Assembly: GCF_900009145.1 (NCBI RefSeq)
Contig: NZ_LN889813.1
Span: forward strand, 367,936-431,935
DNA length: 64,000 bases
Origin: Planktothrix tepida PCC 9214
GTDB lineage: Bacteria > Cyanobacteriota > Cyanobacteriia > Cyanobacteriales > Microcoleaceae
Direction: 5' to 3'
In this document: positions 3,913-64,000 of the stretch, piece after piece
Layout: the number at the start of each line of letters is the position of its first letter
Numbering within the stretch: position 1 is the stretch's first letter
The notes under the pieces: generated by a model
What the model was told of the DNA's origin: nothing
Seen by the model: only the letters and a program-made list of their open reading frames with translations
The model's database searches: none
Translations under genes and position numbers: made by a program

Positions 3913-6900
3913 ATGAATGCAAGATTTTTAGGTCAAACCATGTTTAGCCCAGAGGGCAATACTCTTTCTCAGGTCATCCACACGGTTTCTGAAATTCCCT
4001 TTGATGATTTGACTCACTTAGCGTCTTATCTGGCTCAGGCGCCCATTGCTTTAATTACATTTCGCGATACCACCCATCAGTGGTTGAAATCTCAAGTGGG
4101 TTTAACCGGAACAATACACCCGTATTTAAACTTCTGTGAGTTTATCATGGAATTGCACACTCCACCGGAATCGAGGATGGAGGATAGGGTCGAACCGGAG
4201 AATTCAGTTCGGTTTGTAGAGACCTGTCAGAGCTTCAGGCAACCTCCGAAACTGATTATTATTCCTGATACTTGGAAGGATAAACGTTTGGCAACCCAAC
4301 CCTTAGCCACAGGGGAGCAACCCATTCGATTTTATCTCGGTATTCCTTTAATGACGACGGATCACGTCATGTTAGGAATGATTTCTATTATGGATTATCA
4401 TCCCCGTGAATTGTCCTGTGATACCCTCGACGCTTTACAATCCCTGAGTCATCAAATTATTAGCCAAATCAATTTACATCGTCAACTGATTCAAACAAAA
4501 ACCAAATTTAATCAACTCGAACATATTATTAATGAACGTAAGCAAGTTTGGGAAGTTGTTCGTCAAGAACGGGACTTTGTTTGTGCCGTTCTCGATACCG
4601 TCAGTGCCTTAGTGATTGTCCTTGATCCCGATGGTAAAATTATTCGCTTTAATCGCACCTGTGAAGAATTAACCGGATATTTAGCGGTGGAAGTCGAGGG
4701 AAAAACCTTAGATGAATTAGGATTAACCGTATTTCCCGTTACCAACCCTAGCAACTTAGCGTCAGAATCAATCATGATTGAGTTTGACGAACATCCCAAA
4801 CCTCGGAAAACTCAACCCTCTTTTCCACAAGTTGAGTCCTATTCCGACTCCACCCTGGGGGAAACCGAATGGATTCGACCCGATGGCCAACGCCATTGGA
4901 TTGCCTGGTCACATACAGCTTTGCTACAACCCAATGGTTCAATCAGCCATCTGATTATCACCGGGATTGATATCACCGAACGCAAACAGTCCCAAGAACG
5001 TCTGGGACTTTTAGAGCGGGCGATTACAGCCAGTCCCAGTGGAATTGTGATTAGTGATTTTACTCAACCGGATTGTCCGATTATTTACTGTAATCCCGCC
5101 TTTGAACGGTTAACGGGCTATGCTCAGGAAGAAGTGTTAGGACGCAATTGTCGATTCCTCCAAGGTGAGGATACTGATCCCACCGAACTAGCCCGCATTC
5201 GTCATGCCATTACCCATCAACAGGATTGTATTGTTACCCTGAAAAATTACCGCAAAGATGGTCGGTACTTTTGGAATGAACTCTCGATTTCTCCCGTGCG
5301 TGACCGAGAAGGACGTTTAACCCATTTTATTGGTATACAAACGGATATTACTCACCGCAAACAATCGGAAGATGCCTTACGAGAAAGTGAAGCTCGTTAT
5401 CGGCTTTTAGCGGATCATGCTACGGATTTAATTTCCCGACATAGCCCTGATGGGATTTATTTATATGCTTCTCCAGCCAGTCGGCAACTCTTAGGATATG
5501 AACCTGAAGAATTGATCGGACAATCGTTATATGAGTTGATTCACCCGGCCGATTTAGACGTTGTGAATCAAAAATGTCTGCTCCTGCAAAATAGCTCAGA
5601 TATTTACACGATTAGTTATCGAATTCGATGTCGAAATGGAAACTATATTTGGTTTGAAAGTACCTGTCATGGGTTACAAAATCAGGATTCAGAAACTATT
5701 GATGAAATGATTGCCGTTTCCCGCAATATTACCGAACGAAAACAAGCGGAAACCATCTTATTAGAGCGCTCACGACTTTCTCAATTAGAAGCAGAAGTGG
5801 GAACCGCCCTCGGACATGGGGGGTCAATTGCCGGGATTTTGGGCCGTTGTACAGATGCGATCACCCAATACCCCAAAATCTCAGGGGTAGGAATTTGGAC
5901 ATTGAATCTTCAAAGTAATTTGTTAGATTTGCAAGCGAGTGCGGGGTTAACGGTTTATGAAGGCCATCTAACCGAAACCGATGTTTTAAGCCATAACTTT
6001 CCCTATCCTCTCCCCGAAACAAGACACCAAACCCTTAATTTTCCTTTGGTGGTGGAAGGTCGTTTAGTGGGGTTGATGGGGATTTGTAGTGATGAAATTC
6101 TCAATGAGGAAGCACAAGGGGTATTGGGATGGGTGGCGAATGCCTTAGCCGTAGGCATTGATCGGGTGAAGGCGCGGGAAGAACTGCAAAGTCGCCGGGA
6201 AGGGTTACTGTTTCGATTAGCCAGTCAAATTCGGGATTCTTTAGATATTGATACGATTTTAGGAACGGCGGTGAATGAAATTCGAGCGTTGTTGCAAGTG
6301 GATCAATGCCATTTTCTCTGGTATTTGCCCATGCAGCCGAATCAACAACCGAGTTTTACCGTCACCCACGAAGCCCAAAATCCTAATTTATCCAATGGGT
6401 TGCAGGATTATCCCCCGGCTCAAATTCCCCTATTAGCGGAAAGAATTCGCATCGCAACGACAATTCAAATTGATAATATCGAAACAACAACAGTGTTGGA
6501 TGAATCAACCCGTCAGTTTTTCCAGCAGGCGGGAATTTTTTCCTTGTTGCTATTACCGTTAGAAACACGCTCCGGTCAACGGGGGGCGGTGGTTTGCAAT
6601 CATTATCAAGTGTTTCGACCTTGGCGGGAAAGTGAGGTGGAGCTTTTACGGGCGGTGGTGGATCAGTTAGCGATCGCCATTGACCAAGCTGAATTATACG
6701 CCCAAACCCGTGCTGCTGCCTTAGCCGCCCAAACTCAAGCGTTTCATCTGAGTGAAGCGTTACAGGATTTGAAACAAAAGGAAGCCCAGTTAATTCAAAG
6801 TGAAAAAATGTCGAGTTTAGGGCAAATGGTGGCGGGAGTTGCCCATGAAATTAATAATCCGGTTAATTTTATTTATGGGAATCTCACTTATGCTAAAGAA

Positions 6901-7650
6901 TATACTCAAGATATTTTAGAATTATTGGAATTGTATCAAGATATTTATCCCAATCCCACTCCAGAAATTCAAGAAAAATCCCAAGAAATTGAATTAGAGT
7001 TTTTAGTTGAAGATTTACCGAAAATTCTATCTTCAATGGAAATGGGGGCGGATCGGATTCGTCAAATTGTCGTGTCTTTGAGAAATTTCTCTCGATTAGA
7101 TGAAGCCGAAATGAAGCCTGTTAATATTCATGATGGGATTGATAGCACCCTTTTAATTTTACAAAATCGCTTAAAACCTAAAGGAGCTTTTCAGGGGATT
7201 GAGTTAATTAAAGATTATGGCAAATTACCGAGGGTAGAGTGTTATGCCGGACAGTTAAATCAGGTTTTTATGAATATTTTGAGTAATGCTATTGATGCCT
7301 TAGACAATCAACCTGAACCTCGAATTATTAAAATTAGTACGGATATGATTCATCCAAATTTAAGCGAGAAAAAATGTAAATTCCCGCCTTTAGATCAAGT
7401 GAGAATTATTATTCGAGATAATGGCCCTGGTATTGAAGATAAAGTTAAAAATCGACTGTTTGATCCGTTTTTTACCACAAAACCTGTCGGAAAAGGAACG
7501 GGTTTAGGGTTATCTATTAGTTATAAAATTGTTGTCGATCAGCATCGAGGAGATATTCACTGTTATCGAGATCAAGACAATTTTACCGTGTTTGAAATTT
7601 CTATTCCTATTTCTCAAAAAGAACAACCTTCAGAATTAGTTTTTGAATAA
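3913..7650 (+). CDS. Multi-sensor histidine kinase with GAF, PAS and LOV domains, 1245 aa
   Basis: Predicted cytosolic sensor kinase with no membrane segments. Domains in order: GAF-like (about 15-195), short coiled coil, PAS (225-360), LOV-type PAS (370-490), PAS (495-625), GAF (640-765), GAF (780-920), then HisKA with phosphoacceptor His978 (GVAHEINNP) and HATPase with N (NILSNAIDAL), G1 (DNGPGI) and G2 (GTGLGLS) boxes. The LOV domain has photoactive Cys413 in GRNCRFLQG plus flavin contacts Gln417, Asn445, Asn455 and Gln476. Blue-light sensing is therefore predicted. The last GAF has CNHYQ where bilin-binding relatives have a CHH-type motif, and no obvious bilin cysteine. It is divergent from the receiver gene at 2818-3204. 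Kinase activity is well supported; the target is unknown. Confidence 0.92.
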   Translation: MNARFLGQTMFSPEGNTLSQVIHTVSEIPFDDLTHLASYLAQAPIALITFRDTTHQWLKSQVGLTGTIHPYLNFCEFIMELHTPPESRMEDRVEPENSVRFVETCQSFRQPPKLIIIPDTWKDKRLATQPLATGEQPIRFYLGIPLMTTDHVMLGMISIMDYHPRELSCDTLDALQSLSHQIISQINLHRQLIQTKTKFNQLEHIINERKQVWEVVRQERDFVCAVLDTVSALVIVLDPDGKIIRFNRTCEELTGYLAVEVEGKTLDELGLTVFPVTNPSNLASESIMIEFDEHPKPRKTQPSFPQVESYSDSTLGETEWIRPDGQRHWIAWSHTALLQPNGSISHLIITGIDITERKQSQERLGLLERAITASPSGIVISDFTQPDCPIIYCNPAFERLTGYAQEEVLGRNCRFLQGEDTDPTELARIRHAITHQQDCIVTLKNYRKDGRYFWNELSISPVRDREGRLTHFIGIQTDITHRKQSEDALRESEARYRLLADHATDLISRHSPDGIYLYASPASRQLLGYEPEELIGQSLYELIHPADLDVVNQKCLLLQNSSDIYTISYRIRCRNGNYIWFESTCHGLQNQDSETIDEMIAVSRNITERKQAETILLERSRLSQLEAEVGTALGHGGSIAGILGRCTDAITQYPKISGVGIWTLNLQSNLLDLQASAGLTVYEGHLTETDVLSHNFPYPLPETRHQTLNFPLVVEGRLVGLMGICSDEILNEEAQGVLGWVANALAVGIDRVKAREELQSRREGLLFRLASQIRDSLDIDTILGTAVNEIRALLQVDQCHFLWYLPMQPNQQPSFTVTHEAQNPNLSNGLQDYPPAQIPLLAERIRIATTIQIDNIETTTVLDESTRQFFQQAGIFSLLLLPLETRSGQRGAVVCNHYQVFRPWRESEVELLRAVVDQLAIAIDQAELYAQTRAAALAAQTQAFHLSEALQDLKQKEAQLIQSEKMSSLGQMVAGVAHEINNPVNFIYGNLTYAKEYTQDILELLELYQDIYPNPTPEIQEKSQEIELEFLVEDLPKILSSMEMGADRIRQIVVSLRNFSRLDEAEMKPVNIHDGIDSTLLILQNRLKPKGAFQGIELIKDYGKLPRVECYAGQLNQVFMNILSNAIDALDNQPEPRIIKISTDMIHPNLSEKKCKFPPLDQVRIIIRDNGPGIEDKVKNRLFDPFFTTKPVGKGTGLGLSISYKIVVDQHRGDIHCYRDQDNFTVFEISIPISQKEQPSELVFE

Positions 7651-49990: not shown

Positions 49991-51058
49991 TTAGATTACG
50001 ACAGTAAAAATAGACCCTTGAGGAGCGTTATTTTCAATAGAAATTGTCCCTCCGTGAGCTTCAACGGCTAATTTACAAAACGCTAAACCTAATCCAATTT
50101 GAGGAATTCCTTTGCGAAAAGTTCCGATATCGTATTTCTCAAAAATCCGTTGTCGGCTTTCTTCACTAATCCCAGAACCGCAATCGATTACCTGAATTTT
50201 CACCATTGCGTCCGGGGGATAACTGATTCGAAAAGTAACTTGACTTCCTACGGGAGAAAATTTAATAGCATTCGATAATAAATTATCAATCACTCGATGC
50301 AAAATCACCGGATCAACAAATATTTGTCTCCCGGCTTCGGGAAACTCATACAATAATTTGATCTGACGATAAGCCACAATTGCTTCAAAATCCGTCACCA
50401 CTGTATGACCCATTTCAGATAGATCAACCTGCTCATACTCCAAAACGAATTCATCCGTTTGAACTTTAGCTATAATTAATAAACTATTGACTAAGGAAAC
50501 CATGCGTTTGCTGAGTCGTAAAATATCCTCAACCTTTTGAAGTTGTTTGGGTTGTAATGGGGAAAGTTTGAGAAGTTCACAACTAAATAAAACCCCAGCT
50601 AAAGGATTATTCAAATCATGAATAATCATATTCGATAAATCCTCTCTCGCTTGAAGTAACGCTTGTAATTCATCATATTGCTGCTTCATTCTTAACATAG
50701 AGCGAATTCGGGCACGCAATTCAATCCCATTCACCGGCTTACTAATAAAATCATCCGCACCTGCATCTAAACAAAGTGCTAAATCTTCTTTAGCCGTTAA
50801 AACGGTGACCATAATAATCGGAAGATGACACCAAAGGGGATTTTTTTTGATCTGATGACAAAGTGCAATTCCATCGAACTGTGGCATCATCATATCTAAT
50901 AAAATCACATCTGGTGATTTGACCGATAAATAGTCCAAGGCTTCAGTGCTGCTCCTGGCAAAACTCAGATCATACCCTTCTTGATATAAAAGAAATTCGA
51001 TGACATGAAAATTGTCTGGCTCATCATCCACTATCAGCACGGAAGGAGGTAAAGCCAT
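49991..51058 (-). CDS. Response regulator-histidine kinase fusion
   Basis: The 355-residue protein has a receiver domain (1-125) with VDDEP, phosphoacceptor Asp55 in LLDMMMPQFDG and Lys107 in ISKPVN, then HisKA with phosphoacceptor His147 (MIIHDLNNPLAG) and HATPase with N box (NLLSNAIKFS), DCGSGI and GLGLAFCK. The start is ATG 51058, six bases after AAGGAG. The C-terminus ends GSIFTVVI. Receiver-first kinases commonly take phosphate from another kinase; the upstream phytochrome is a candidate. It lies at the end of the minus-strand phytochrome unit, 12 bp after a decayed receiver remnant. Confidence 0.92.
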   Translation of the reverse strand: MALPPSVLIVDDEPDNFHVIEFLLYQEGYDLSFARSSTEALDYLSVKSPDVILLDMMMPQFDGIALCHQIKKNPLWCHLPIIMVTVLTAKEDLALCLDAGADDFISKPVNGIELRARIRSMLRMKQQYDELQALLQAREDLSNMIIHDLNNPLAGVLFSCELLKLSPLQPKQLQKVEDILRLSKRMVSLVNSLLIIAKVQTDEFVLEYEQVDLSEMGHTVVTDFEAIVAYRQIKLLYEFPEAGRQIFVDPVILHRVIDNLLSNAIKFSPVGSQVTFRISYPPDAMVKIQVIDCGSGISEESRQRIFEKYDIGTFRKGIPQIGLGLAFCKLAVEAHGGTISIENNAPQGSIFTVVI

Positions 51059-51069
51059 TCTTAACTCCT

Positions 51070-51460
51070 TTAACAAGATTTTGAGAAGAAAGTTTGTATC
51101 GTTTCTAATAATTGTACAAGACGAATGGGTTTCGTTAAATAGACATTTACATTCATTGCTAAATACCGTTCTTGATCTTCCGGCATAGCCAAAGCCGTTA
51201 ATGCAATAATTGGAATTTGATAAATTGATGAATTTGCTCTAATTTGGCGCATGGCTGTTAATCCATCTATTGGAGGCCTGGAAATATCCATTAAAATCAA
51301 GGGCGGTCATTGCTCTTGTGTTATTTTAAGCACGTCTCAACTATTTTTAGCAAGCACAACTTGATAACCTTTGCCATCCCCATACTCCAACTTCAAGTAG
51401 TGCTATATCTTTCTTTAAGTAACGACGATAGACGGTTCGATGTTCTGGAGAATCGTCTTG
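51070..51460 (-). pseudogene. Decayed receiver domain remnant of a hybrid kinase
   Basis: The last 77 codons (51300-51070) read as the C-terminal two-thirds of a receiver: LILMDISRPPIDGLTAMRQI, IPIIALTALAMPEDQERYLA, VYLTKPIRLVQLLETIQ. Upstream in the same frame GKGYQVVLAKNS continues, but two TGA stops (at 51337-51339 and 51307-51309) break it. Further upstream, in another frame, DDSPEHRTVYRRYLKKD resembles the start of a receiver-like module. The phosphoacceptor Asp is kept, but acidic-pocket residues are missing. I read this as the eroded tail of a deleted hybrid kinase. Confidence 0.8.
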
Positions 51461-51473
51461 TTGAATTCAAGTT

Positions 51474-51908
51474 TCAGCGCAGCAGAGAAACTTCTAGCCA
51501 ATAATGAAGAAAATGCTTGATTTTCTGTTTGAATTCATCTATTCCTATAGGTTTTAAAAGATAACTGTTAGCTCCGTATAGATAGCAGGTTTCTATATCT
51601 TTAGGGTTGGAAGATGAGGTTAAGACAATAATCGGGATACTTTTTAGCATTATATCTTGTTTTACCTGGTAAATAACCTCCCGACCATCCGTTCCCGGTA
51701 AGTTCAGATCCAGAAGAATTAAATCTGGAACAGGTGCGATATCGGGATTAGAATAATGATCTTGATGATACAAATAAGCTAACGCATCGTCTCCATCCAT
51801 AACCCTATAAATCCGATTAGAATAGGATAACTGTCGCATCACCCGTTTGAATGCGGTGAAGTCTTCATCACTATCCTCAACCACTAATATCGTTCTTTGA
51901 TATTGCAT
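51474..51908 (-). CDS. Rcp-type response regulator paired with phytochrome
   Basis: A 144-residue receiver-only protein of the Rcp1 family: LVVEDSDEDFTAFKRVMRQL, Asp in LILLDLNLPGTDGREVIYQV, IIVLTSSSNPKDIETCYLYG and ANSYLLKPIGIDEFKQKI. The extra residues around the beta3-alpha3 loop (YHQDHYSNPDIAPVPD) are typical of Rcp partners of phytochromes. It starts 28 bp after the phytochrome stop, on the same strand, so it is the likely phosphoacceptor of that kinase. Confidence 0.92.
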   Translation of the reverse strand: MQYQRTILVVEDSDEDFTAFKRVMRQLSYSNRIYRVMDGDDALAYLYHQDHYSNPDIAPVPDLILLDLNLPGTDGREVIYQVKQDIMLKSIPIIVLTSSSNPKDIETCYLYGANSYLLKPIGIDEFKQKIKHFLHYWLEVSLLR

Positions 51909-51936
51909 TCACTTTCCTCAGCCTCTTTCTAATAAT

Positions 51937-54246
51937 TTATCCTAAAAAATAAGGAAGTGTAAAATAAAAGGTTGTCCCTTCATGGGGAATAGAATTGAGC
52001 CAAATTGTTCCCCCATGTCGTTCAATAATTTTTTTAACAATTGTTAATCCCGCTCCCGTTCCACCTCCATATTGAGTTCGTGCATGAAGGCGTTTAAAAA
52101 TTCTGAAAATAGTGTCATGATGCTTGAGCGGAATTCCAATACCATTATCCCGAATATACAACGTTAAAAACGGTTGAGTTTCTTCTGTGATCAGGAGTTC
52201 TGGATCTAAATATCCAATTTCGACAGATTTGATTAACTGCTCATTATATTTTAATCCATTACTAATTAAATTTGTCAAGACTTCTTGAATTAAAATTTTA
52301 TCCCCTCGAATCAAGGGTAAAGTTCGAGGAATCACAATATTGATTGTATCGGCTGCATAACTCATTTGAAACAATTCAATAATCCGAGAGATTAACTGAT
52401 TCAAATCTAACGGATTCAGCTTCAATTCCTGTCGCCCCAGGCGAGAAAAATGTAATAGAGAATTGATTAAATCCTCCATCCGTTTCGTCAAATCAACTAA
52501 GGTTTGCAGTTTATAAACTCCATCCTCATCGAGAACTTGACCATAATCTTCCAATAAAAAGGTAGAATAATTATGAATTCCGCGCAAGGGTTCTTTTAAA
52601 TCATGGGAAGCAATATAAACAAAGGCATCTAACTCGCTATTGGTGCGTTGTAAATCTAAATTTATTGCGGCCAGTTCGTCAGCTTTCTGTAAAATAATAC
52701 TAACTAAGGCACTTCTGACTTCTAGGGCGGCTTCAATTTCAAAAGGTTGCCAAGGTAAGGACTTTCCCTGAACCGTTTCTTGCCACAGAGCAAAGGATTT
52801 ACGCGGAAAAATTGTTAAACTGCCATCTTCTTCAATTCGTTTTGGTTTATCAGGATTTCCCGCCCAATTCACATATTGTAATTGTTCAGGACGAAACCAT
52901 AAAATAAAATTTCGTTTAATTTTGGTAATGGAAATTGCCAGTAAACCACTAGCAACCGCCTGAAAATTTGCCGCTGGAGGGTACACCGTTGAGAGGGAAT
53001 CGGTAACAAATGTATGATTTTTAAATTGATCAGATAACCACAGAATTAAGGGTTCTAATTCTGAACTTGAAGGGGTTTTTCCTATAAGAATTAAATGCTC
53101 ATCTTGAACAAAAACCGCCCCTTCTGCCGCCATTAATTTCAGGAGATCTTCTTGATTTTGCAGTAAAGCATCCATGATCGTTTCTGCCTGAACCATAATA
53201 TCTGTAAATTTTGCTTGCAGAGATTTTAGGGATAGTTTGTAATCTAAATTTTCATGTTCTACCTTAGTCGGTAACTCTAAAGACATCGCTTGTCCCAGAA
53301 ATTCACACACCGTTCTGAGACTATAGGAAAGAAATTTAGGGCTGTAATGATGACAGGCAATTAATCCCCAAAGTTGATTATTGTTAACAATTGAAATTGA
53401 GAGGGATGCTGCGACCCCCATATTTTTTAAATATTCTCGATGAATGGGAGAGACACTCCTCAACACACTAAAGCTTAAATCAAGGGGTTCTGTTGCTGTA
53501 TCCGATGGCATAGAAATAATAGGAACAGGTTGATAATTAATATCAGGAATTAATCGCAATCCATTGAGAATATAGAGTTGTTTTGCTTGTTTAGGAATAT
53601 CAGAATCAGGATAATGTAATCCCAGATAAGGTTCTAAATCCTCTCGCTTTTCCTCGGCAATGACCGTTCCTGAACCATCGGAAAAAAACCGATAAATCAT
53701 GACTCGATCAAACTTCGTAATTTTTTGGATTTCTTGGATTAAAACTTCACACATTTGAGCAAGGGTTGTTGTTTTTTGCAGTTTTAAAAATACCTTTTTA
53801 GTTAATTCATAAAAATTTAAAAAATTAGGCGATTCTTTTTCTGCTGTTGGTTCTAATTCTAAAATAAAATAATTTTGAGGAGAACGGTGAATAATCCCTT
53901 GGAATACTTTGATATCTTGATTAATTTGTACCTGAAGTTGTACTGGATTAACCTGATCAAACGTTCCTTCTAAACACTCTTGCAGGGCCAAAAGTTGCTC
54001 TGAGGCAAATAGAAAAGATAGGGGGTGTCCTAAACATTGTTCGGGTGGGATCCCTAAATAAACCTCTGTATTATTACTAACTTGAAGAATATTCAGGTCA
54101 GGATTGGACAACACAAACAAAATTCCATGAGATTGAATTGTGCCCGGAAGATGGATAAGTTCTCGATCACAGTTATTTAAACTTAAAGGTTCAGGGAAAA
54201 GTTCAAATTGTGTCGTCGATGGTAAGTTAAAGTTATGGGAATTCAA
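51937..54246 (-). CDS. Phytochrome histidine kinase, biliverdin-type (BphP/CphB-like)
   Basis: The 769-residue protein has PAS (about 20-135), GAF (145-320), PHY (335-510), HisKA and HATPase. Cys26 in NNCDRELIHLPGTIQSHG is the N-terminal biliverdin-binding cysteine of bacteriophytochromes. In the GAF domain the bilin cysteine of Cph1-type proteins is replaced by Ile268 (RSVSPIHREYLKNMGV). DSDIPKQA and the PHY tongue PRKSFALW are present. Phosphoacceptor His548 lies in ASHDLKEPLRG, and the ATP site has DNGIGIP and GGGTGAGLTIVKK. It should be a biliverdin-binding red/far-red photoreceptor kinase. Downstream genes are an Rcp regulator and a receiver-kinase. No heme oxygenase gene is adjacent. 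Confidence 0.95.
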   Translation of the reverse strand: MNSHNFNLPSTTQFELFPEPLSLNNCDRELIHLPGTIQSHGILFVLSNPDLNILQVSNNTEVYLGIPPEQCLGHPLSFLFASEQLLALQECLEGTFDQVNPVQLQVQINQDIKVFQGIIHRSPQNYFILELEPTAEKESPNFLNFYELTKKVFLKLQKTTTLAQMCEVLIQEIQKITKFDRVMIYRFFSDGSGTVIAEEKREDLEPYLGLHYPDSDIPKQAKQLYILNGLRLIPDINYQPVPIISMPSDTATEPLDLSFSVLRSVSPIHREYLKNMGVAASLSISIVNNNQLWGLIACHHYSPKFLSYSLRTVCEFLGQAMSLELPTKVEHENLDYKLSLKSLQAKFTDIMVQAETIMDALLQNQEDLLKLMAAEGAVFVQDEHLILIGKTPSSSELEPLILWLSDQFKNHTFVTDSLSTVYPPAANFQAVASGLLAISITKIKRNFILWFRPEQLQYVNWAGNPDKPKRIEEDGSLTIFPRKSFALWQETVQGKSLPWQPFEIEAALEVRSALVSIILQKADELAAINLDLQRTNSELDAFVYIASHDLKEPLRGIHNYSTFLLEDYGQVLDEDGVYKLQTLVDLTKRMEDLINSLLHFSRLGRQELKLNPLDLNQLISRIIELFQMSYAADTINIVIPRTLPLIRGDKILIQEVLTNLISNGLKYNEQLIKSVEIGYLDPELLITEETQPFLTLYIRDNGIGIPLKHHDTIFRIFKRLHARTQYGGGTGAGLTIVKKIIERHGGTIWLNSIPHEGTTFYFTLPYFLG

Positions 54247-54677
54247 GGAATAGGCCTCCTCAAGTTGTAGTATTATCAGTAATTATACAGTTAATTAAAA
54301 CCGAACTCTTCATTAAAGGTCTATTTTAGATATCGGTACTGATTAAGATATGTTAAATCTAATTCTCAATCAAGGGTTGATAAACAGGTTAGTGATGCAG
54401 CGCAACGTGCTATAATCAGACTGGAGATTTTTCAGGATACCCAACAATTCATTTTGAAAGCCCAAGCTTAAGAAATTGGAATTCCTGAAACCAAAAAAAA
54501 TATTTAACAAATTTTATTGCAGTTCAAATGCAGGAAATATTTCCGGTACTGGACTCAGTTGATCAAGGGTTAAACCTTTTTCAAAGCTCATCGGGGCAGT
54601 ATTTTGATCGAAACCATCCTCGGAGCAAAAACACAATTTACCATCAAATTATCGCTGGAGGGAAATGAATAAATTTT
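54247..54677. other. Divergent promoter region of the signalling island
   Basis: A 431-base spacer between the phytochrome unit (minus) and the receiver cluster (plus). An extended -10, TGCTATAAT, lies at 54408-54416 pointing right, 260 bases before the first plus-strand gene, without a clear -35. No ORF is convincing. GGAG precedes the 54678 start by about 14 bases. Confidence 0.45.
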
Positions 54678-55409
54678 ATGAATAAAGTTTTGATTATTGA
54701 AGATGAAGATACCATTCGAGAAAATATAATGGAGTTACTTTTATCCGAAGAATTCCAAGTTTTAGATGCGGCTCAAGGTCAATTAGGGATTAAGTTAGCT
54801 TCAGAGTATCAACCCAACTTAATTCTCTGTGATATTATAATGCCAGATATTGATGGGTATACTGTTCTCACCGAGATGCAAAAACAACCCCTTCTTGCCA
54901 ATATTCCGTTTATTTTTATGACCGCTAAAGCTGAACGCAGGGATTTGCGGTTAGGAATGGAATTAGGGGCGGATGACTACATCACAAAACCCTTTACACC
55001 GATAGAACTCTTGAGTACCATTCGCGCCCGATTAAAAAAACAACAACAGTATTTATTTCAATATGCGGAGGAACGAGAACGTGCAAATCAACTTAAACAG
55101 AAAGTTGCTGAACTTGAGCAACTCAGCAAAACCCAGGAAGAACTGTTACTGCGGCTATCAGAAGAACTGAGTAACCCGATGTCTAATATTAGTTTAGCGG
55201 TTCAAATGTTAAACTTATTATCAACCAACGCCAATGAAGTACCTCATTTAGCTTTAAAACAACAACGTTACTTAAAAATCCTCCAAGAAGAGTGTGCGCG
55301 GGAAGTGAGTATTCTCAATCAGATTTCAGACTTACAAACGCTATTAACCCCAGAAAATATTAAATTCATTCGCAAACTCAATGTATTACAGAGAAACAAC
55401 TATGACTAA
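54678..55409 (+). CDS. Response regulator with histidine-less DHp-like helix, 243 aa
   Basis: A complete receiver domain (1-120: IEDED, Asp52 in LILCDIIMPDIDG, MTAKAE, YITKPFTP) is followed by a coiled coil and a segment shaped like a kinase dimerisation helix: LLRLSEELSNPMSNISLAVQ. Where real kinases have S-H-E-L-R-T-P-L, this has S-E-E-L-S-N-P-M, so the phosphoacceptor His is Glu162. No ATPase domain follows. It may work as a dimeric adaptor or a decoy within the cluster. Its last eight bases overlap the start of the next gene, implying translational coupling. Confidence 0.88.
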   Translation: MNKVLIIEDEDTIRENIMELLLSEEFQVLDAAQGQLGIKLASEYQPNLILCDIIMPDIDGYTVLTEMQKQPLLANIPFIFMTAKAERRDLRLGMELGADDYITKPFTPIELLSTIRARLKKQQQYLFQYAEERERANQLKQKVAELEQLSKTQEELLLRLSEELSNPMSNISLAVQMLNLLSTNANEVPHLALKQQRYLKILQEECAREVSILNQISDLQTLLTPENIKFIRKLNVLQRNNYD

Positions 55410-57168
55410 AATTCTTGTGATTGAAGATGAAGATTTAATTCGAGATAATATTGTAGAACTTCTCGAATCTGAAGACTTTGAAGTTTTCAATGCCGAGGAC
55501 GGTAAAATTGGGGTGCAACTGGCTAGTCAACATCAACCGGATTTAATTTTGTGTGATGTGATGATGCCAGAACTCGACGGTTATGGGGTTCTCCTCAAGT
55601 TACAAGAAAACTCCCTGACAGCGACCATTCCCTTCATTTTCTTAACAGCAAAAGCTGATTTAGGAGACCTGCGGAAAGGAATGCAGCTTGGGGCTGATGA
55701 TTATTTGACTAAACCCTGTACCGCCACAGAATTACTCAAAGCGATTGTGATTCGTTTAGAAAAACACACGATCTTAAAAGATCGTTATAGTAGCGAATTA
55801 AAAGTAGCTGAAGCTAAACTCAATCAATTAATTTATCAAAATAGCACCACAAGCTTACCCAACCGTTTATCTTTGTTGGAATATTTTCAACAAATGCTGC
55901 ATCAATTAGCATCCTTATCGGGGATAGATGAAAATTGGAATTACCAAGGCATGATTCCCGTTCTCTGTTTAGGGGTAGATCGATTTAGCCGAATTAATGA
56001 TCTTTTTGACTATGAAAGCGGAGATTTACTCTTAAAAGAGGTAGGAGAACGGCTCAGAAAAAATTTATCTGCTGAAAATATTATTACCCATATCAATGCC
56101 GATCAATTTGCAATTTTACTATCCCCAATTTTAGATAAAAAACAGCTGAAAACCACCTTAGAAGGATTACAACAAATCATTTCTAAACCCTTTGTTTTAA
56201 TGAACCGGGAAGTCTTGATCACCATTAGCATTGGAATTGCACTCTATCCCCAAGACGGTCGGGAGATTCAACAACTTCTGCGGGCGGCAAAACAAGCCAT
56301 GAATGAAGTCAAGCAACAAGGAGGAAATCACTATACTTTTTATACCCCCACCTGTGATCATGAACTCTCAGAACGGATTGATTTAGAAGTCGCCCTGCGC
56401 TATGCTTTAGAAAGGGAAGAGTTTCAACTTTACTATCAACCGCAAGTCAGTTTAAAAACAGGAAACATTGTCGGGGCAGAAGCGTTACTGCGCTGGAAAC
56501 ATCCCCAACAAGGAATGATTTCCCCGATGAAATTTATTCCGATTGCGGAAGAAACGGGTTTAATTGAACCGATTGGAGAATGGGTTTTATATCAAGCTTG
56601 TAAAGATAGTAAAGCATGGCGCTCTCAAGGGTTAGGTTGTTTACGGGTAGCCGTTAACTTATCGGGTCGTCAATTCCGAACTGCTAACTTGCGCCAAAAA
56701 TTAGTGCAAGTTTTACTCACCACCGGCTGCGAACCGGATTATTTAGAATTAGAATTAACCGAAAGTTTGTTGATTCGAGATGCGGAATTATCCATCCAAC
56801 AATTGCAAGCCTTAAAAGCCCTGGGTTTAAAAATAGCCATTGATGATTTTGGGACAGGATATTCTTCTCTCAACTATCTGCAAAAATTTCCGTTTGATGT
56901 GCTGAAAATCGATCAATGCTTCGTTCGGAATCTCCATAATAATAAAATCAATGCGGCTATTACCCAATCTTTAATTTCGATGGCGCATCTTTTAAATCTA
57001 AAAGTAATTGCTGAAGGAGTTGAAACCCAAGAAGAGTTAGACCTCTTGAATGAGTTTAATTGTAATGAAATTCAGGGATATTTATTCAGTCGTCCTCTCA
57101 ATTTAGAAGAGTTTCAAGCCTTAGTTAAAAGCGGACGAAAATTAAAAGTTTCTCAACCGAATCCCTAA
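55402..57168 (+). CDS. Receiver-GGDEF-EAL protein, probable cyclic-di-GMP phosphodiesterase
   Basis: The 588-residue protein joins a receiver domain (Asp in LILCDVMMPELDG), a GGDEF domain (about 150-310) and an EAL domain (about 325-575). The GGDEF signature is degenerate: N232-A-D-Q-F236 in HINADQFAILL, so cyclase activity is unlikely. The EAL domain keeps E360-A-L, DDFGTGYSSL, FDVLKIDQCFV and VIAEGVETQEE, all metal and catalytic residues, so cyclic-di-GMP hydrolysis is likely. The start MTKILVIEDED (ATG 55402) overlaps the previous gene by eight bases. Phosphorylation of the receiver would tune the output. Confidence 0.93.
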   Translation: MTKILVIEDEDLIRDNIVELLESEDFEVFNAEDGKIGVQLASQHQPDLILCDVMMPELDGYGVLLKLQENSLTATIPFIFLTAKADLGDLRKGMQLGADDYLTKPCTATELLKAIVIRLEKHTILKDRYSSELKVAEAKLNQLIYQNSTTSLPNRLSLLEYFQQMLHQLASLSGIDENWNYQGMIPVLCLGVDRFSRINDLFDYESGDLLLKEVGERLRKNLSAENIITHINADQFAILLSPILDKKQLKTTLEGLQQIISKPFVLMNREVLITISIGIALYPQDGREIQQLLRAAKQAMNEVKQQGGNHYTFYTPTCDHELSERIDLEVALRYALEREEFQLYYQPQVSLKTGNIVGAEALLRWKHPQQGMISPMKFIPIAEETGLIEPIGEWVLYQACKDSKAWRSQGLGCLRVAVNLSGRQFRTANLRQKLVQVLLTTGCEPDYLELELTESLLIRDAELSIQQLQALKALGLKIAIDDFGTGYSSLNYLQKFPFDVLKIDQCFVRNLHNNKINAAITQSLISMAHLLNLKVIAEGVETQEELDLLNEFNCNEIQGYLFSRPLNLEEFQALVKSGRKLKVSQPNP

Positions 57169-57197
57169 CATGAATTAGAATCATTGAGGACATTCAA

Positions 57198-58298
57198 ATG
57201 ACCAAAATATTAGTAATTGAAAATGAAGAATCCATTCGAGAAAATATCGTAGAACTTTTAGAAATTGAAGAGTTTGAAACTTTATCCGCCGAGAATGGAA
57301 AAATCGGTTTATCAATTGCCCAAAGCACTCATCCCGATTTAATCTTATGTGATGTGATGATGCCCGAACTCGATGGCTATGGGGTAATAGAAGCATTGCG
57401 GAAAGAACCCGAAACCATGATGATTCCGTTTATTTTCCTAACCGCAAAAGCTGATAAATTGGATTTAAGGAAAGGGATGGAATTAGGGGCTGATGATTAT
57501 TTAACTAAACCTTTTACCCCCTCTGAATTGTTAAAAGCAATTTCGACTCGACTCGAAAAACAAGCGGTTGTTCAAAAAGCATCTCAACAACAATTACAGG
57601 AACTTCGCAGCAATATTACCCATTCTCTTCCCCATGAATTAAGAACCCCTCTGAATGGAATTCTCGCTTCAACGGAATTGCTACTCCATGAATTAGACTT
57701 TATGGATGCCCAGGAAATTCGGGAAATGGTCGAGCAGATTTCTTTATCCGGTCAACGCTTATATCGGTTGATCATGAATTTTCTCCTCTATGCTGAATTA
57801 GAACTGATTGCTACCGAACCCAAACGCATTGCTGCCTTACGTCAGTATAAAACAGCATCTTCCAAAGACGCGATTACTGAACAAGTCATGACTCAGGTTC
57901 AAGAAGCACAACGGATGGCAGATTTATCTCTGAATTTGCAAGATGTTCCCATCGCCATGGCAGAGATGAGGTTGAAAAAACTGGTGGAAGAATTAGTTGA
58001 TAATGCTCTAAAGTTTTCCAATCCAGGAGAACCAATTGAAATTAATGGATGTGTTAAAGACCGTCAATTTGTTTTATCGGTTAAAAATACTGGACGAGAA
58101 ATGAATCCTCAACAAATTGCTCAAATTGGCGCCCATATGCAGTTTGAACGCAAACTCTATGAACAACAAGGCTCTGGCTTAGGATTAGCCATCGTCCAAA
58201 AACTCATCGAACTCCACGAAGGTCAACTGCTCATAGAAACTCCCACCCCCAACCAAACCCTCGTGACTCTTTATTTACCCCTAATGACTGACGCCTGA
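57198..58298 (+). CDS. Response regulator-histidine kinase fusion
   Basis: The 366-residue protein starts with a receiver nearly identical in layout to its two upstream neighbours (MTKILVIENEESIRENIVEL, LILCDVMMPELDG, YLTKPFTP), then HisKA with His146 in SLPHELRTPLNGI and HATPase with VEELVDNALKFS, a variant G1 box (VKNTGREM) and GSGLGLAIVQK. It lies 29 bp after the EAL protein. Strong similarity of the three receivers suggests tandem duplication. It could relay phosphate from an upstream sensor to the neighbouring receivers. Confidence 0.92.
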   Translation: MTKILVIENEESIRENIVELLEIEEFETLSAENGKIGLSIAQSTHPDLILCDVMMPELDGYGVIEALRKEPETMMIPFIFLTAKADKLDLRKGMELGADDYLTKPFTPSELLKAISTRLEKQAVVQKASQQQLQELRSNITHSLPHELRTPLNGILASTELLLHELDFMDAQEIREMVEQISLSGQRLYRLIMNFLLYAELELIATEPKRIAALRQYKTASSKDAITEQVMTQVQEAQRMADLSLNLQDVPIAMAEMRLKKLVEELVDNALKFSNPGEPIEINGCVKDRQFVLSVKNTGREMNPQQIAQIGAHMQFERKLYEQQGSGLGLAIVQKLIELHEGQLLIETPTPNQTLVTLYLPLMTDA

Positions 58299-58391
58299 CC
58301 CCTAACTTCCCCCCTCCCCATCTCCCCGTCCCCTAGTCCCCTAGTCCCCCCATCCCCCTTACCCCGTCCCTCTCCCCCTCATGGCTCTGAA
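58299..58391. repeat. C-rich polypyrimidine tract between signalling genes
   Basis: About 85 bases of CCCCT/CCCC-type sequence, including two copies of CCCCTAGT, fill the gap between the kinase stop and the next ATG. It is markedly different in composition from its AT-rich surroundings and lacks a ribosome binding site near the next start. Confidence 0.8.
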
Positions 58392-61300
58392 ATGGAACTT
58401 AATAGTTTACCGTCTTACATCCCAACGCTGAATCAACTTTTGGATAGAGATCCTCTGAGTGTCAGTCCTGAAATGCCTGTGTTAGAGGTACTCAGACAGA
58501 TGAATGAGAACCCCTACTATCCGGCCAGTTATGTTGTGGTGCAACAAGAGAATCAGTTAGTCGGGATATTTACTGAACGGGATGTCATCCACTTGATCAG
58601 TTCTAGCCAATCCTTGGCCGGGATCAAGATGCAAGAGGTGATGACAACGGAAGTTATAATTTTAAAACAAGCAGACTATCGAGATATTTATCATACTATT
58701 TCCCTATTGCGGGAACATCAAATTCGCCATCTACCGGTTGTTGATGACCAAGGACAATTGCAAGGGGTGATTACCGGAGAAACCCTACGCCAAATGTTGC
58801 AACCGATTAATGTGTTGCGGTTGCGTTCCGTTGCTGAAGTGATGACAACTCCAGTGATTCAGGTTTTTCCCTCCACCCCGGTGTTAGACATAGCCAAACT
58901 TTTAGCTCAACATCAGATTAGTTGTCTGGTTGTTGTTGAAGAGCGTCCTCCTCAGTTTCCCCTCAACAGCAGTCCGAGCACAATTCCAGTCGGTTTAATT
59001 ACAGAACGGGATTTGCTGCGGTTTCAAAGCCAAAACCAAGATATTTCCGGTTTAACCGCCCTTGAAATGATGAATCAACCCGTGTTGACGATTCATCAAC
59101 ATGATAATTTATGGCGGGCAAATCAGCAAATGCAAAAACATCGGGTGCGTCGCTTAGTGGTGATAGGAAATCAAGGAGAATTATTAGGAATCATTACCCA
59201 GAGCAATTTATTGCGTTTATTTGACCCGGCAGAATTGAATGAAATTGTCACATTTTTAGAACAAAAAGTTCAAGATTTAGAAGTCGAAAAACAACAACTC
59301 CTCGACGAACAAGAGCAGATCGTTGAACAACGGGTACAACAACGGCTGCGAGAACTTCAACACCTCCCAGAAACTCAAAAACAAACAGAAGCCGAATTAC
59401 AAAAAGCCCACCAACAGTTAACTTTTCATGTCGAAAATTCTCCTTTAGCCGTGATTGAATGGGATGAACAATTTCGCCTCAAACGCTGGTCGCCCCAAGC
59501 TGAAAAAATCTTTGGTTGGAAGGCTGAAGAAATCCTACATCGCCATTGGAATCAGTGGGAATTTGTACATCCAGAAGATTTAGAACAGGTCACTGCGATC
59601 GCGTCCCACTTACTCAACGGTGAGGAAAGTCGGAATATCTGTTGTAATCGAAACTATACCAAAGACGGTACTTTGGTGTACTGTGAATGGTATAACTCTG
59701 CTTTCAAAAACGAATCTGGACAAGTTGTCTCTCTTTTATCACTGGTACAGAATGTCACTGTCCGGCAAACATCCCAAGGAGAACTTAAACGTCGCGCCCG
59801 ACAACAACAGGTAATTGCAGAATTAGGTCAATATGCTCTTTGTCAAACCAACTTAGATACTTTATTACAAAAGGTTGTGATCCTCGTTGGACAGACTTTA
59901 GGGATTAAATATGTTCAAATTTGGGAATTACTCGCTAACGACAGTACCTTTTTGTTAACCGCAGGATTAGGATGGCGTTCGGGTTCTGTGGGGCGAATCA
60001 CCGTTGGTCAGGGTCGCAAGTCCCAACCCGGTTATACCTTATTATTAAAAGAACCGATTATTGTTGAGGATTTACGAGTCGAAAGTCGCTTTAGTGGTTG
60101 TGCCTTTTTTTATAATCATAATATTGTCAGTGGCGTTACCGTTCTCATTTCGGGGAAAGAAAAGCCCTTTGGGGTCTTAGGAATTCATACTGAGGAAGAA
60201 CGTCGGTTTACTTCAGATGAAATTAATTTTTTACAAGCGATTGCTAATATTATTGCGTCTTGCGTCGAACGACAACAAGCTGAAGAAGAATTAAATCGCT
60301 TTTTTAATCTTTCCTTAGACATTTTTTGTATTGGCACAACCCAAGGATTTTTTCAACGAGTTAATCCTCGAATGTTGAGTTTATTAGGATATACAGAAAC
60401 TGAACTTTTAGGACAATCGTTTTTAGGTTTAATTCATCCTGATGATTGGGCAAATACCCTATTACAATTAGAGAATTTATCATTAGGAATTCCCAGCCAT
60501 AATTTTGAGAATCGATATCAATGTAAAAATGGTTCTTATCGGTGGTTATCCTGGACAGCGATGCCCTTTGATGAAACCCAATATTATGCGGTGGCACGAG
60601 ATGTTAGCGAAAACAAACGCACTGAAGCCGCGTTACGCAAGAGTGAAAAACGCTATGCCACCTTAGCAGAAGTATCTCCGGTGGGAATTTTTCACTGCGA
60701 TATTGATGGGAATTGTTTGTATGTTAATCAACGTTGGTGTGAAATTGCTGGACTGACCCCGAAAGAAGCATTAGGACAGGGTTGGACGCAGGCCATTCAC
60801 CCAGAAGATCAAGCCCATGTGAAGGAAGAATGGCAGCGACTACGGACAGATTCGGGTCAAATCCGAGAGACATCTTTACAAAAAATTCAGTTTTGTTGTG
60901 AATATCGGCTTCAGCGTCAAGATGGTCAAATAACGTGGGTTTTTGGTCAAGTCGTGGAAGAATTAAATGATCAAGGTGAAATCATTGGTTATGTAGGAAC
61001 GATTACAGATATTAGCGCTCGAAAACAAGCCGAAGCCGAGTTAAAAACCCTCAATGAAGAGTTAGAAGATCGAGTCGCTGACCGCACCACAGAACTCAGT
61101 TTCATGAATGAAAAATTACATCGCCAAGTTGTAGAATTACAGGAAATAGAATCACAATTAGAAGATAAAGCTTATCAACAAGCGATCATTGCTGAATTAG
61201 GTCAAAAAGCTCTTTCAGAAATGAATTTAGTGTCCCTGATTAATGAAATTGTAGTTCAAATTGCCCAAGATTTAAACGTTGAATATTGCAAAATTTTAGA

Positions 61301-64000
61301 ATACAATTTAGAAGGAGTATTTCTCACCTTAGCGGTTTGGGACGAGCCCACTCAACATTATACCCTTCTCAGTCATGAACCCCTGGTTTTCAAACCCCCG
61401 ATGATTCATCACATCCCCAATGTTCAGGACGATCTAAAATTTAATTTCTCCCAATCCCAGCTTGATTTAGAGGAAAAGGATCTAAATCATGACAACTTTA
61501 CACTTTTAAATAAAGGCATCTGTATTCCGATTATGGGGCAAAATTATCATCATTTGGGACAGGTAGAAATTTATGGGAAAAAACTACAACTGTTTAGTGA
61601 AGATGATGTTAATTTCTTGCAAAGTGTAGCCAATATTCTAGCAACGGCAATTGAACGAAAACAAGCTGAAGAAGTGATTCGCCAGAGTGAACAACTCTAT
61701 CGTTTAATGGCTGATCATTCAACGGATTTAATTAGTCGCCATACCCCCCAAGGTGTTTATCTTTATGCGTCCCCCGCCTCTCGTTCTTTGTTGGGTTATG
61801 AACCAGAAGAGTTAGTCGGACGTTCAGCTTATGAATTATTCCATCCTGAAGATTTAGCCAAAATCAATCGCCCTCATCAAAGTTCTATTGAAACAGCCGA
61901 TATTAATACTATCGTTTATCGAATTTTGCGGAAAGATCAAGAGTATGTGTGGTTTGAAACCACTCAAAAAAAGGTACGAGATCAAACAGGAAACATTCAA
62001 GAAATTGTTGCCATATCCCGTGATATCACGGATCGTAAACAAACGGAAGAAGCGTTACGGTTTAGTGAAGAACGATTTAAAATAACGCTCAAAAATTCCC
62101 CCATTGTTGTATTTAATCAAGATTTAGAGTTACGCTACACTTGGATTTATAATCCGGCGGGTGGATATGTACCCGAAGCCGTGATTGGTCGATTAGATAG
62201 TGATATTTTTCCTCCAGAAAATGCCGTTAAGCTGATCCAACTTAAACAACAAGTTTTAAATACAAAAGTGGGGTTGAGAGAAGAGGTAATTACGAATCTT
62301 CATAATCAAGATATTCAATGCTATGATTTAACCATTGATCCGCTCTTAGATTTAGAAGGAAATATTATTGGAATTACCGGAGCAGCTTTAGATATTACTG
62401 ATCGCAAAAAAGCCGAATTAGAATTGCAAGAAAGTCAACGGTTTATTCAACGGATTACGGATGCTAGTCCTAATATTTTATATATTTATGATTTGCTTGA
62501 AAAGCACACTATTTATGTCAATCATGAAATTACTAAAGTCTTAGGATATACGCGAGAAGAAATTTTAGAAATGGGTTCAACTGTACTCTCGGATCTAGTT
62601 CATTCCGAGGATTATGCTCAACTAGAAATCTATCATCAAAAATTGGCAACGGCGACTAAAGATGAGATTTTTGAGTTTGAATACCGGATGAAAGATATTC
62701 AGGGAAATTGGCATTGGTTAGTCAGCCGAGATACCATTTTTGCTCGAACCTCCGATGGAAAACCGAAACACATCCTAGGCGCCGCAACGGATATTACAGA
62801 ACGAAAACGGGTGGAAGAAAAATTACGACTCAGTGAACGAGCGATCGCCTATAGTAGTAATGGCATTGTGATTGCGGATGCTCGACAACAGGATTATCCG
62901 ATTGTTTTTGTTAACCCAGCTTTTGAAAAAGTGACGGGATATTCGGCTCAAGAAGCGATTGGTAAAAATAGCCGTTTTCTCCAAGGTAAGGATCGTCGCC
63001 AATCGGAGTTAAAGCAAATTAAAAAAGCGTTAGAACAGAAAAAAAATTGTAATGTTGTTTTGAAAAATTACCGTAAAGATGGCTCTTTATTTTGGAATGA
63101 ATTGAATATTTCTCCCATTTATGATGAGGCGGGAAATCTTACCCATTATTTAGAAATTCAGAATGATATTACTGAAAGTAAATTAGCCGAGGAACGTTTA
63201 GGTCAACAAGTCATCCGAGAACGATTAATTGCCACCATTACTCAACGGATTCGAGAATCTTTAGATCTTAAATCTATTTTATCAACAATGGTAACGGAAG
63301 TTAAACAGTTTCTGAAAGCGGATCGAGTTTTAGTATATCGAATTTATCCCGACAGTACAGGAAGTGTAATTGCGGAAGATGTTAATCCAGAGTGGAGTTC
63401 CCTTTTAGAACAAACTTTTTCTGAAGAAATCTTTCCCTCAGAATGTCATCCAAGTTATATTAACGGGAAAATTGCCTCCATTGCTAATATTAAAGAAAAT
63501 CAGATTTTACCGTGTTTAGTTGAATTTTTAGAGCAATTTCAAGTTCAAGCTAAAGTTGCCGTTCCCATTATTGAAAATGAAACTCTATGGGGTTTATTAA
63601 TTGCCCATCAATGCAGTCAACCTCGACAATGGGAAGAATGGGAAATTTCCCTTCTGCAACAAATTACCAGTCAACTTGCCATTGCGATTCAACAATCGGA
63701 ATTATATGAACAATTACAAACAGAATTAAAAGAACGTTCTCTGGCGCAACAAGCTTTATTAGTCAGTCAAGAACGATTACAATATTTATTATCTTCTAGC
63801 CCCGGAATTATTTATAGTGCCAAAGCGAATGGAGACTATGAAGCTACCTTTATTAGTGATAATATTAAAACCCTTTTAGGATACAATGTCTCGGAATTTA
63901 CTCAACCCAGCTTTTGGTTAAACCATATTCATCCAGAAGATATTGAGAAACTGAAAAATCAAGAAATATCTACCTTATTTCAGCAAGAATATGCAACTTA
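58392..64000 (+). CDS. Giant CBS-PAS-GAF sensor protein with LOV-like domain, 3'-truncated by window end
   Basis: Open for at least 1869 codons without a stop. Order: two CBS pairs (about 15-135 and 145-300; FTERDV, LITERDLLRF), a coiled coil, PAS, GAF, two PAS, coiled coil, GAF, three PAS, a LOV-like PAS (1483-1595), GAF (1605-1770) and one more PAS at the edge. In the LOV-like domain IGKNSRFLQG has Ser1527 where photoactive LOV has Cys, while Gln1531, Asn1559, Asn1569 and Gln1590 remain. The last GAF resembles phytochrome-type GAFs (RADRVLVYR-like KADRVLVYRIYP, WGLLIAHQC) without a bilin cysteine at the usual place. A kinase or cyclase output is expected beyond the window. CBS domains suggest adenylate sensing. 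Confidence 0.93.
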   Translation, partial: MELNSLPSYIPTLNQLLDRDPLSVSPEMPVLEVLRQMNENPYYPASYVVVQQENQLVGIFTERDVIHLISSSQSLAGIKMQEVMTTEVIILKQADYRDIYHTISLLREHQIRHLPVVDDQGQLQGVITGETLRQMLQPINVLRLRSVAEVMTTPVIQVFPSTPVLDIAKLLAQHQISCLVVVEERPPQFPLNSSPSTIPVGLITERDLLRFQSQNQDISGLTALEMMNQPVLTIHQHDNLWRANQQMQKHRVRRLVVIGNQGELLGIITQSNLLRLFDPAELNEIVTFLEQKVQDLEVEKQQLLDEQEQIVEQRVQQRLRELQHLPETQKQTEAELQKAHQQLTFHVENSPLAVIEWDEQFRLKRWSPQAEKIFGWKAEEILHRHWNQWEFVHPEDLEQVTAIASHLLNGEESRNICCNRNYTKDGTLVYCEWYNSAFKNESGQVVSLLSLVQNVTVRQTSQGELKRRARQQQVIAELGQYALCQTNLDTLLQKVVILVGQTLGIKYVQIWELLANDSTFLLTAGLGWRSGSVGRITVGQGRKSQPGYTLLLKEPIIVEDLRVESRFSGCAFFYNHNIVSGVTVLISGKEKPFGVLGIHTEEERRFTSDEINFLQAIANIIASCVERQQAEEELNRFFNLSLDIFCIGTTQGFFQRVNPRMLSLLGYTETELLGQSFLGLIHPDDWANTLLQLENLSLGIPSHNFENRYQCKNGSYRWLSWTAMPFDETQYYAVARDVSENKRTEAALRKSEKRYATLAEVSPVGIFHCDIDGNCLYVNQRWCEIAGLTPKEALGQGWTQAIHPEDQAHVKEEWQRLRTDSGQIRETSLQKIQFCCEYRLQRQDGQITWVFGQVVEELNDQGEIIGYVGTITDISARKQAEAELKTLNEELEDRVADRTTELSFMNEKLHRQVVELQEIESQLEDKAYQQAIIAELGQKALSEMNLVSLINEIVVQIAQDLNVEYCKILEYNLEGVFLTLAVWDEPTQHYTLLSHEPLVFKPPMIHHIPNVQDDLKFNFSQSQLDLEEKDLNHDNFTLLNKGICIPIMGQNYHHLGQVEIYGKKLQLFSEDDVNFLQSVANILATAIERKQAEEVIRQSEQLYRLMADHSTDLISRHTPQGVYLYASPASRSLLGYEPEELVGRSAYELFHPEDLAKINRPHQSSIETADINTIVYRILRKDQEYVWFETTQKKVRDQTGNIQEIVAISRDITDRKQTEEALRFSEERFKITLKNSPIVVFNQDLELRYTWIYNPAGGYVPEAVIGRLDSDIFPPENAVKLIQLKQQVLNTKVGLREEVITNLHNQDIQCYDLTIDPLLDLEGNIIGITGAALDITDRKKAELELQESQRFIQRITDASPNILYIYDLLEKHTIYVNHEITKVLGYTREEILEMGSTVLSDLVHSEDYAQLEIYHQKLATATKDEIFEFEYRMKDIQGNWHWLVSRDTIFARTSDGKPKHILGAATDITERKRVEEKLRLSERAIAYSSNGIVIADARQQDYPIVFVNPAFEKVTGYSAQEAIGKNSRFLQGKDRRQSELKQIKKALEQKKNCNVVLKNYRKDGSLFWNELNISPIYDEAGNLTHYLEIQNDITESKLAEERLGQQVIRERLIATITQRIRESLDLKSILSTMVTEVKQFLKADRVLVYRIYPDSTGSVIAEDVNPEWSSLLEQTFSEEIFPSECHPSYINGKIASIANIKENQILPCLVEFLEQFQVQAKVAVPIIENETLWGLLIAHQCSQPRQWEEWEISLLQQITSQLAIAIQQSELYEQLQTELKERSLAQQALLVSQERLQYLLSSSPGIIYSAKANGDYEATFISDNIKTLLGYNVSEFTQPSFWLNHIHPEDIEKLKNQEISTLFQQEYAT

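Follow-up and report, generated by a model that had tools for sequence, protein, structure and literature searches.

Two neighbouring two-component modules, each probably bereft of a sensor kinase, in a signalling island of Planktothrix tepida

We find that the signalling island at positions 49,991 to 64,000 of the window, the 64,000-nucleotide stretch of Planktothrix tepida PCC 9214 DNA analysed here (on contig C57 of the 6.78 Mb genome G000), is probably made up of two adjacent two-component modules, each of which has lost a sensor kinase. An ORF list and a domain search placed seven signalling genes and one remnant in this interval. All eight signalling loci claimed in an initial annotation are present, the ORFs and domains agree with its first list, and its domain assignments for the phytochrome, Rcp, the receiver-kinases, the GGDEF-EAL protein and the giant sensor held. 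Module A, on the minus strand, comprises a biliverdin (BV)-type CphB-like phytochrome, Rcp and the receiver-kinase RHK1; module B, on the plus strand, comprises P4, P5, P6 and the giant, and its receiver module is found across many cyanobacteria. The P4 and P5 ORFs overlap by 8 bases (with the chosen start codon) and the later plus-strand gaps are 29 and 93 bases, so P4, P5, P6 and the giant likely form an operon. Because each module has lost sensor kinases, A and B probably do not work as a single circuit, and two neighbouring systems, with B partly orphaned, fit better than the single branched relay originally proposed.

Module A begins with a 769-aa phytochrome histidine kinase (51,937–54,246, minus strand; PAS-GAF-PHY-HisKA-HATPase; H548, D549, E552). 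Its N-terminal Cys26 is present and Ile268 occupies the canonical GAF Cys position, a pattern that bears out the earlier BV-type assignment and from which we predict a biliverdin-binding protein of the red/far-red type. CphB itself we take to be of this biliverdin type, with the N-terminal Cys and without the canonical one. The island pair resembles CphB-RcpB of Calothrix PCC 7601, as described in PMC3264485, in joining a phytochrome kinase to an Rcp receiver, and differs from that description in being followed by a hybrid-kinase scar and a receiver-kinase and in standing divergent to module B. Another phytochrome operon in the same genome (L239:9059-13146, plus strand, contig C12), with Rcp and a kinase, is of the canonical-Cys type, and its phytochrome shows the opposite Cys pattern. 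ORF and domain calls place the island's Rcp-type single-domain receiver (144 aa) at 51,474–51,908, and the last gene of the module is RHK1, a 361-aa receiver-HisKA-HATPase kinase (49,991–51,076), both on the minus strand. Counterparts of RHK1 in the Planktothrix genomes G002, G005 and G008 are 96, 76 and 75% identical.

Between Rcp and RHK1 lies the first scar (51,082–51,457, minus strand), found by tblastn against the kinase of intact relatives. This locus had been noted as a dead receiver remnant, and it is indeed a remnant, now identified as that of a hybrid sensor kinase (REC-PAS-GAF-HisKA-HATPase-REC). Of the other three Planktothrix genomes with the island, two keep this kinase intact between Rcp and RHK1, G005 (1048 aa) and G008 (1231 aa), and pieces of both its ends remain in the window, a C-terminal receiver piece (51,082–51,387; 67% over 102 aa) and a 17-aa N-terminal piece (51,407–51,457; 65% identity); the "dead receiver" is therefore a deletion scar. 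The deletion is more advanced in the sister genome G002, where nearly all of the hybrid kinase is gone and the Rcp and RHK1 frames overlap. Elsewhere in the P. tepida genome the hybrid kinase has only six matches at E ≤ 1e-80, of 37–54% identity. A genome of another genus (G011, locus L219) retains the order phytochrome, Rcp, hybrid kinase, RHK1-like kinase. In module A as it now stands, the phytochrome would signal to its own Rcp, with the hybrid kinase between Rcp and RHK1 deleted.

The second scar, absent from the initial annotation, lies on the plus strand between the phytochrome and P4 (approximately 54,329–54,665), where blastn and tblastn revealed the decayed C-terminal HATPase part of a PAS-HisKA kinase with an HEF-type H-box. 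It matches the G005 kinase at 70% over 429 bp by blastn, reaching into the start of P4, and with a tblastn E value of 8e-10, and it has stop codons in all three forward frames. The intact kinase of G005 is a 516-aa PAS-HisKA protein whose gene stops 6 bp short of P4; in G008 a 117-aa HATPase fragment of the PAS kinase remains (76% over 91 aa) and P4 is gone. A search for this kinase elsewhere in the P. tepida genome gave as its best-scoring match a kinase 38% identical, on contig C47, overlapping a P6 paralogue, and two others at 42–43% over the kinase half only. Loss of the kinase has left the receivers of P4, P5 and P6 without their usual kind of upstream partner.

P4 (54,678–55,409, plus strand; 243 aa) joins a receiver to a DHp-like half with Glu162 at the phospho-acceptor position and Asn166 at H+4. 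That this DHp lacks its histidine was seen at the outset, and the absence proved general: none of the 55 P4-type proteins with a residue in the phospho-acceptor column has His there (Q 26, E 20, I 3, R 2, V 2, S 1, A 1 and one gap; n=56, the window's protein included). The profile used to collect these proteins was itself derived from His-less members, and only lengths of 170–320 aa were accepted, so short His-bearing relatives could be under-sampled. In contrast, P6-type proteins retain His in 55 of 59. The receiver active site of the P4 type is kept (Asp 55/56, Thr/Ser 56/56, Lys 55/56), and H+4 is Asn in 32 and Asp in 10 of the 56. Two other readings of the missing histidine were rejected: recent pseudogene status of the DHp half, where dN/dS is 0.157 compared with 0.131 in the receiver, and a shifted phospho-acceptor, as the top columns have His in 14–15 of 56 and the window's protein has Gln there.

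The C-terminal half of P4 scores 25.7 bits against Pfam HisKA, below the cut-off of 26.9, and 20 of 22 relatives match HisKA at E ≤ 1 (best 1.4e-9). AlphaFold models of the whole protein show the receiver, a long helix (108–182) and a hairpin partner (189–222; pLDDT 81, pTM 0.55), and the C-terminal half modelled alone again forms a helix-turn-helix (pLDDT 77, pTM 0.42). With this half as the Foldseek query, the first 11 rows were all histidine kinases, among them CpxA, a bacteriophytochrome and a LOV kinase, though weakly matched (best E 0.37, none ≤ 0.001). Among the 50 matches listed for whole P4 there were receiver proteins and no kinase DHp; two were EutV, aligned over 208 columns at an rmsd of 19. 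A profile of the P4 pseudo-DHp found one further match in the genome at E ≤ 1e-8, the DHp of an 802-aa kinase (L192:1117-3525, plus strand, contig C45), whose H-box region reads SHELRTPLANMKMAIHML with His present; full kinases such as this one are the likely origin of the P4 pseudo-DHp.

P4 genes mostly stand among signalling genes. Fifty P4 loci offered more than 9 kb of sequence, and their neighbours were labelled by BLAST to island proteins and not by Pfam. A signalling-like ORF lies within three ORFs in 44 of these loci, a kinase-like ORF directly upstream in 29, and a P5-, P6- or RHK1-like ORF directly downstream in 24; the six P4 genes without a signalling-like neighbour count against the two-module explanation. 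Word searches of the open-access literature found no description of a His-less receiver-DHp family.

We suggest that P4 may act by docking or as a phosphatase, gated by its receiver. In its most specific form this proposal, which we advance tentatively and would not be surprised to see fail, is that phosphorylation of the receiver in P4-family proteins uncovers a docking face without His, through which the protein removes phosphate from, or sequesters, the sibling receivers served by the same kinase. P4 would act by docking because its DHp-like bundle is not phosphorylatable at the usual place. There is precedent in PMC3510030, according to which the H371A variant of CrdS remains able to remove phosphate from its receiver (half-life 2.6 min, compared with 53.5 min for the receiver alone), an activity that requires N375 and is not significant in N375D, and the DHp of EnvZ or NtrB alone suffices as a phosphatase, with the ATPase domain greatly raising activity. 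The likeness is that a DHp without His or without an ATPase domain dephosphorylates a receiver; the difference is that the proteins described there are laboratory variants or kinase fragments, and P4 is natural and receiver-gated. On the CrdS precedent as given there, a phosphatase role across the whole P4 family is ruled out, because of the members with Asp at H+4. The phosphatase activity of DrBphP is described as ATP-dependent and as needing Glu at H+4, with Asn substitution abolishing it (PMC8292422); P4, unlike DrBphP, has no ATPase domain.

An alternative that we consider possible, if doubtful, is that the C-terminal half of P4 is a mere handle for dimerisation and takes no part in catalysis or docking. 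The long helix and hairpin predicted in the models would suit such a handle, and archaeal receivers with HisKA and without HATPase have been proposed to dimerise, in a class reported in the same source as never studied experimentally (PMC5847659). One of these, A. fulgidus AF_1472, resembles P4 in joining REC to a DHp, or in P4 a DHp-like half, with the ATPase domain absent; by comparison with its description there, P4 has no PAS or GAF, lacks His in all members examined, is cyanobacterial and is often kinase-linked. Against a mere handle, the H-box surface of the P4 type is conserved (Pro at H+5 in 49/56, Ser at H+7 in 48/56), probably beyond what a coiled coil would need.

The two genes that follow P4 encode more familiar outputs. 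P5 (55,402–57,168, plus strand, overlapping the end of P4) is a receiver-GGDEF-EAL protein in which the GGDEF motif reads NADQF, so that the diguanylate cyclase signature is missing, and all EAL catalytic residues tested are present; P5 is thus a predicted c-di-GMP phosphodiesterase, as the initial annotation had it when naming c-di-GMP hydrolysis as one output. Among 37 P5-type proteins the EAL set is intact in 30 and a [GSAN]GDEF motif occurs in 7; at a Nostoc locus (L121) the counterpart is receiver-EAL only. In Anabaena PCC 7120 a large PAS/GAF kinase gene, cdgK, is cotranscribed with one for a receiver-type c-di-GMP enzyme, CdgS (PMC9927289), a likeness to module B; CdgS as described there is a diguanylate cyclase, whereas P5 would break c-di-GMP down and has sibling receivers alongside. 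Contig C46 of the same genome carries a second receiver-GGDEF-EAL protein (L041:6600-8348, minus strand), its GGDEF degenerate-looking by eye, and, about 4 kb beyond, a second CBS-PAS-GAF giant (L041:12645-14999, plus strand) with a GAF that is CBCR-like by eye. P6 (57,198–58,298, plus strand) is a 366-aa receiver-HisKA-HATPase kinase with His146 and the G1 box NTGREM.

The last gene of module B encodes the giant sensor kinase of 2,380 aa (plus strand, from 58,392 to the end of the window at 64,000 and about 1.5 kb past it), in which domain searches found four CBS domains, a PAS/GAF array with a CBCR-type GAF, a LOV-like PAS and, beyond the window, a HisKA_2-HATPase end. The GAF at residues 1625–1766 matches cyanobacteriochromes (8k9o, E 4e-45; RcaE, 7ckv), a type not named in the initial annotation. 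Its Cys, at what we take to be the bilin-binding chromophore position, is present in seven of eight giants, and the eighth is without that stretch. CH is the usual motif in cyanobacteriochrome GAF domains; the giant reads CL, with no His beside the Cys, and so does 8k9o, for which a literature word search found nothing. On homology and the position of the Cys, we predict a GAF of the cyanobacteriochrome type. The Cys of the motif NCRFLQ binds flavin in LOV domains. In the LOV-like PAS this motif reads NSRFLQ, with Ser for Cys, in seven of the eight giants, and it was not found in the eighth; blue-light sensing by this domain is thus unsupported. A 1245-aa PAS/GAF kinase with an intact LOV-type GRNCRFLQG (by eye) is encoded about 46 kb from the island, at window positions 3,913–7,650 (plus strand). 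The CBS part of the giant is present in G000 and G002, and the G008 giant begins at residue 294, overlapping P6; the giant is complete here and has probably gained its CBS N-terminus in this lineage.

The close paralogy of the three plus-strand receivers was confirmed: they are mutual nearest relatives within the genome (P5-P6 71%, P4-P5 60% and P4-P6 58% identity; next best 52–56%). In a receiver tree each of the three is nearest to same-type genes of other genomes, and clean P4, P5 and P6 clades were not recovered. Given the 71% identity in this genome, P5 and P6 may have exchanged receivers, and we therefore assigned types by whole proteins and gene order. All three genes are under purifying selection (dN/dS 0.145–0.156 against G005, with P4 at 0.145, and 0.11–0.15 between G000 and G002). 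The alpha-1 helices of the three receivers closely resemble one another and differ from the ones in Rcp and RHK1, which suggests one phosphodonor for the trio.

The usual upstream partner of such receivers points to what that donor was. Directly upstream of P4-, P5- or P6-type genes at loci over 5 kb we counted 67 ORFs, 51 with HisKA, 3 with HisKA_2 and 13 without a recognised H-box. Across all loci, and counting only proteins whose HisKA H-box could be recognised, the box reads HEF in 52 of 59 kinases directly upstream and in 46 of 177 others (Fisher p 1.4e-17; rows not independent). The loci for this count were chosen for their similarity to either P4 or the phytochrome, and close relatives supplied several of them. 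In the reverse direction the link is weaker: with one HEF kinase taken from each of 30 genomes, 6 were followed by a trio-type receiver, 17 were not and 7 could not be judged, so HEF kinases serve other partners too. Among the 10 Planktothrix genomes only G005 has an HEF site inside the island. The island's own H-boxes are HDLKEP in the phytochrome, HDLNNP in RHK1, HELRTP in P6 and a HisKA_2 motif in the giant. Because the upstream kinase is of the HisKA_2 type at three loci (L044, L045 and L159), the giant is a reasonable candidate for the donor. The P. tepida genome has four HEF-pattern sites, none within the island, and two of them resemble, by eye, the subtype found upstream of trio genes. 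On contig C47 a PAS kinase with an HEF H-box overlaps a P6 paralogue (L040:7861-10790, minus strand) and is a candidate donor in trans. Before its loss, the HEF-type PAS kinase was probably the donor of module B, and the present one is probably either the HisKA_2 kinase of the giant or the paralogous HEF kinase on C47 acting in trans. An ORF of 463–467 aa directly upstream of P5 in five Planktothrix genomes (L055:9918-11309, L057:10886-12289, L056, L059 and L060) was considered as a sensor and rejected, the one copy tested, that of L055, being an ACT-malic enzyme.

Conserved synteny, a check put forward in the initial annotation, was found for the plus-strand module in relatives both within and beyond Planktothrix. 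The phytochrome adjoins module B in 4 of the 10 Planktothrix genomes (G000, G002, G005 and G008), and full P4 is found in G000, G002 and G005. Five others (G001, G003, G006, G007 and G009) have P5, P6 and the giant without an adjoining phytochrome, and all five lack P4; the P4 query had no match in G004, which is 73% complete. Genomes of other genera also carry genes of the P4, P5 and P6 types, in many cases accompanied by large sensor kinases. The juxtaposition of phytochrome and module B is thus limited to part of the genus, as sampled.

This distribution bears on the reading originally proposed, a branched relay in which the phytochrome (and the giant) feed phosphate to all receivers and light controls c-di-GMP hydrolysis. 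Besides the proximity in four Planktothrix genomes, it draws on P6-type kinases near phytochrome operons (a full one at two of 28 other phytochrome loci, L224 and L230, and one at L110) and on the Cys-bearing CBCR-type GAF of the giants. At L141, moreover, where neighbours were labelled by BLAST to island proteins, an RHK1-hybrid-kinase pair is divergent from sensor-P5-P6, and in view of these four layouts some lineages may couple A to B. We nevertheless find the branched relay unlikely. Module B stands without an adjoining phytochrome in the five Planktothrix genomes and in other genera, and no full P6-type kinase was found at 26 of the 28 non-island phytochrome loci (4 of them under 12 kb), 24 of the 28 having an adjacent Rcp-like gene on the same strand. 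The H-box of the phytochrome and the receiver face of Rcp differ from those of the trio and of its usual, mostly HEF, upstream kinases. RHK1 was also tried as an anchor for the island: RHK1-like kinases occur in 35 of 79 genomes at E ≤ 1e-60, and, from lists compared by hand, only G055 and G053 beyond the four island genomes have one within 10 kb of a trio match, so the association of RHK1 with the trio is weak. A response of the island to light is something we infer. A still less probable reading, that module B is orphaned and decaying, its HEF kinase gone and the trio heading for loss, would account for the second scar and for G008, where only a fragment of this kinase survives and P4 is missing, but P4, P5 and P6 are open and show the low dN/dS given above, and the giant is complete and has probably gained a CBS N-terminus.

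With two neighbouring modules, then, one phosphodonor would serve the three paralogous receivers of module B, which would drive different outputs. P5 would hydrolyse c-di-GMP, P6 would be a receiver-controlled kinase relaying to a further partner, and P4 would act as a receiver-gated competitor or phosphatase of its sibling receivers. If so, P4 would be a built-in brake within a one-kinase, three-receiver module. The window's lineage, without the kinase that its relative retains, is a natural rewiring experiment. We regard the P4 family as the most interesting part of the island and as deserving specialist attention: a family that pairs an intact receiver with a dead DHp turns up repeatedly in cyanobacteria, mostly near kinases and c-di-GMP enzymes, and it raises the testable question of whether a DHp without histidine or ATPase can serve as a signalling output.
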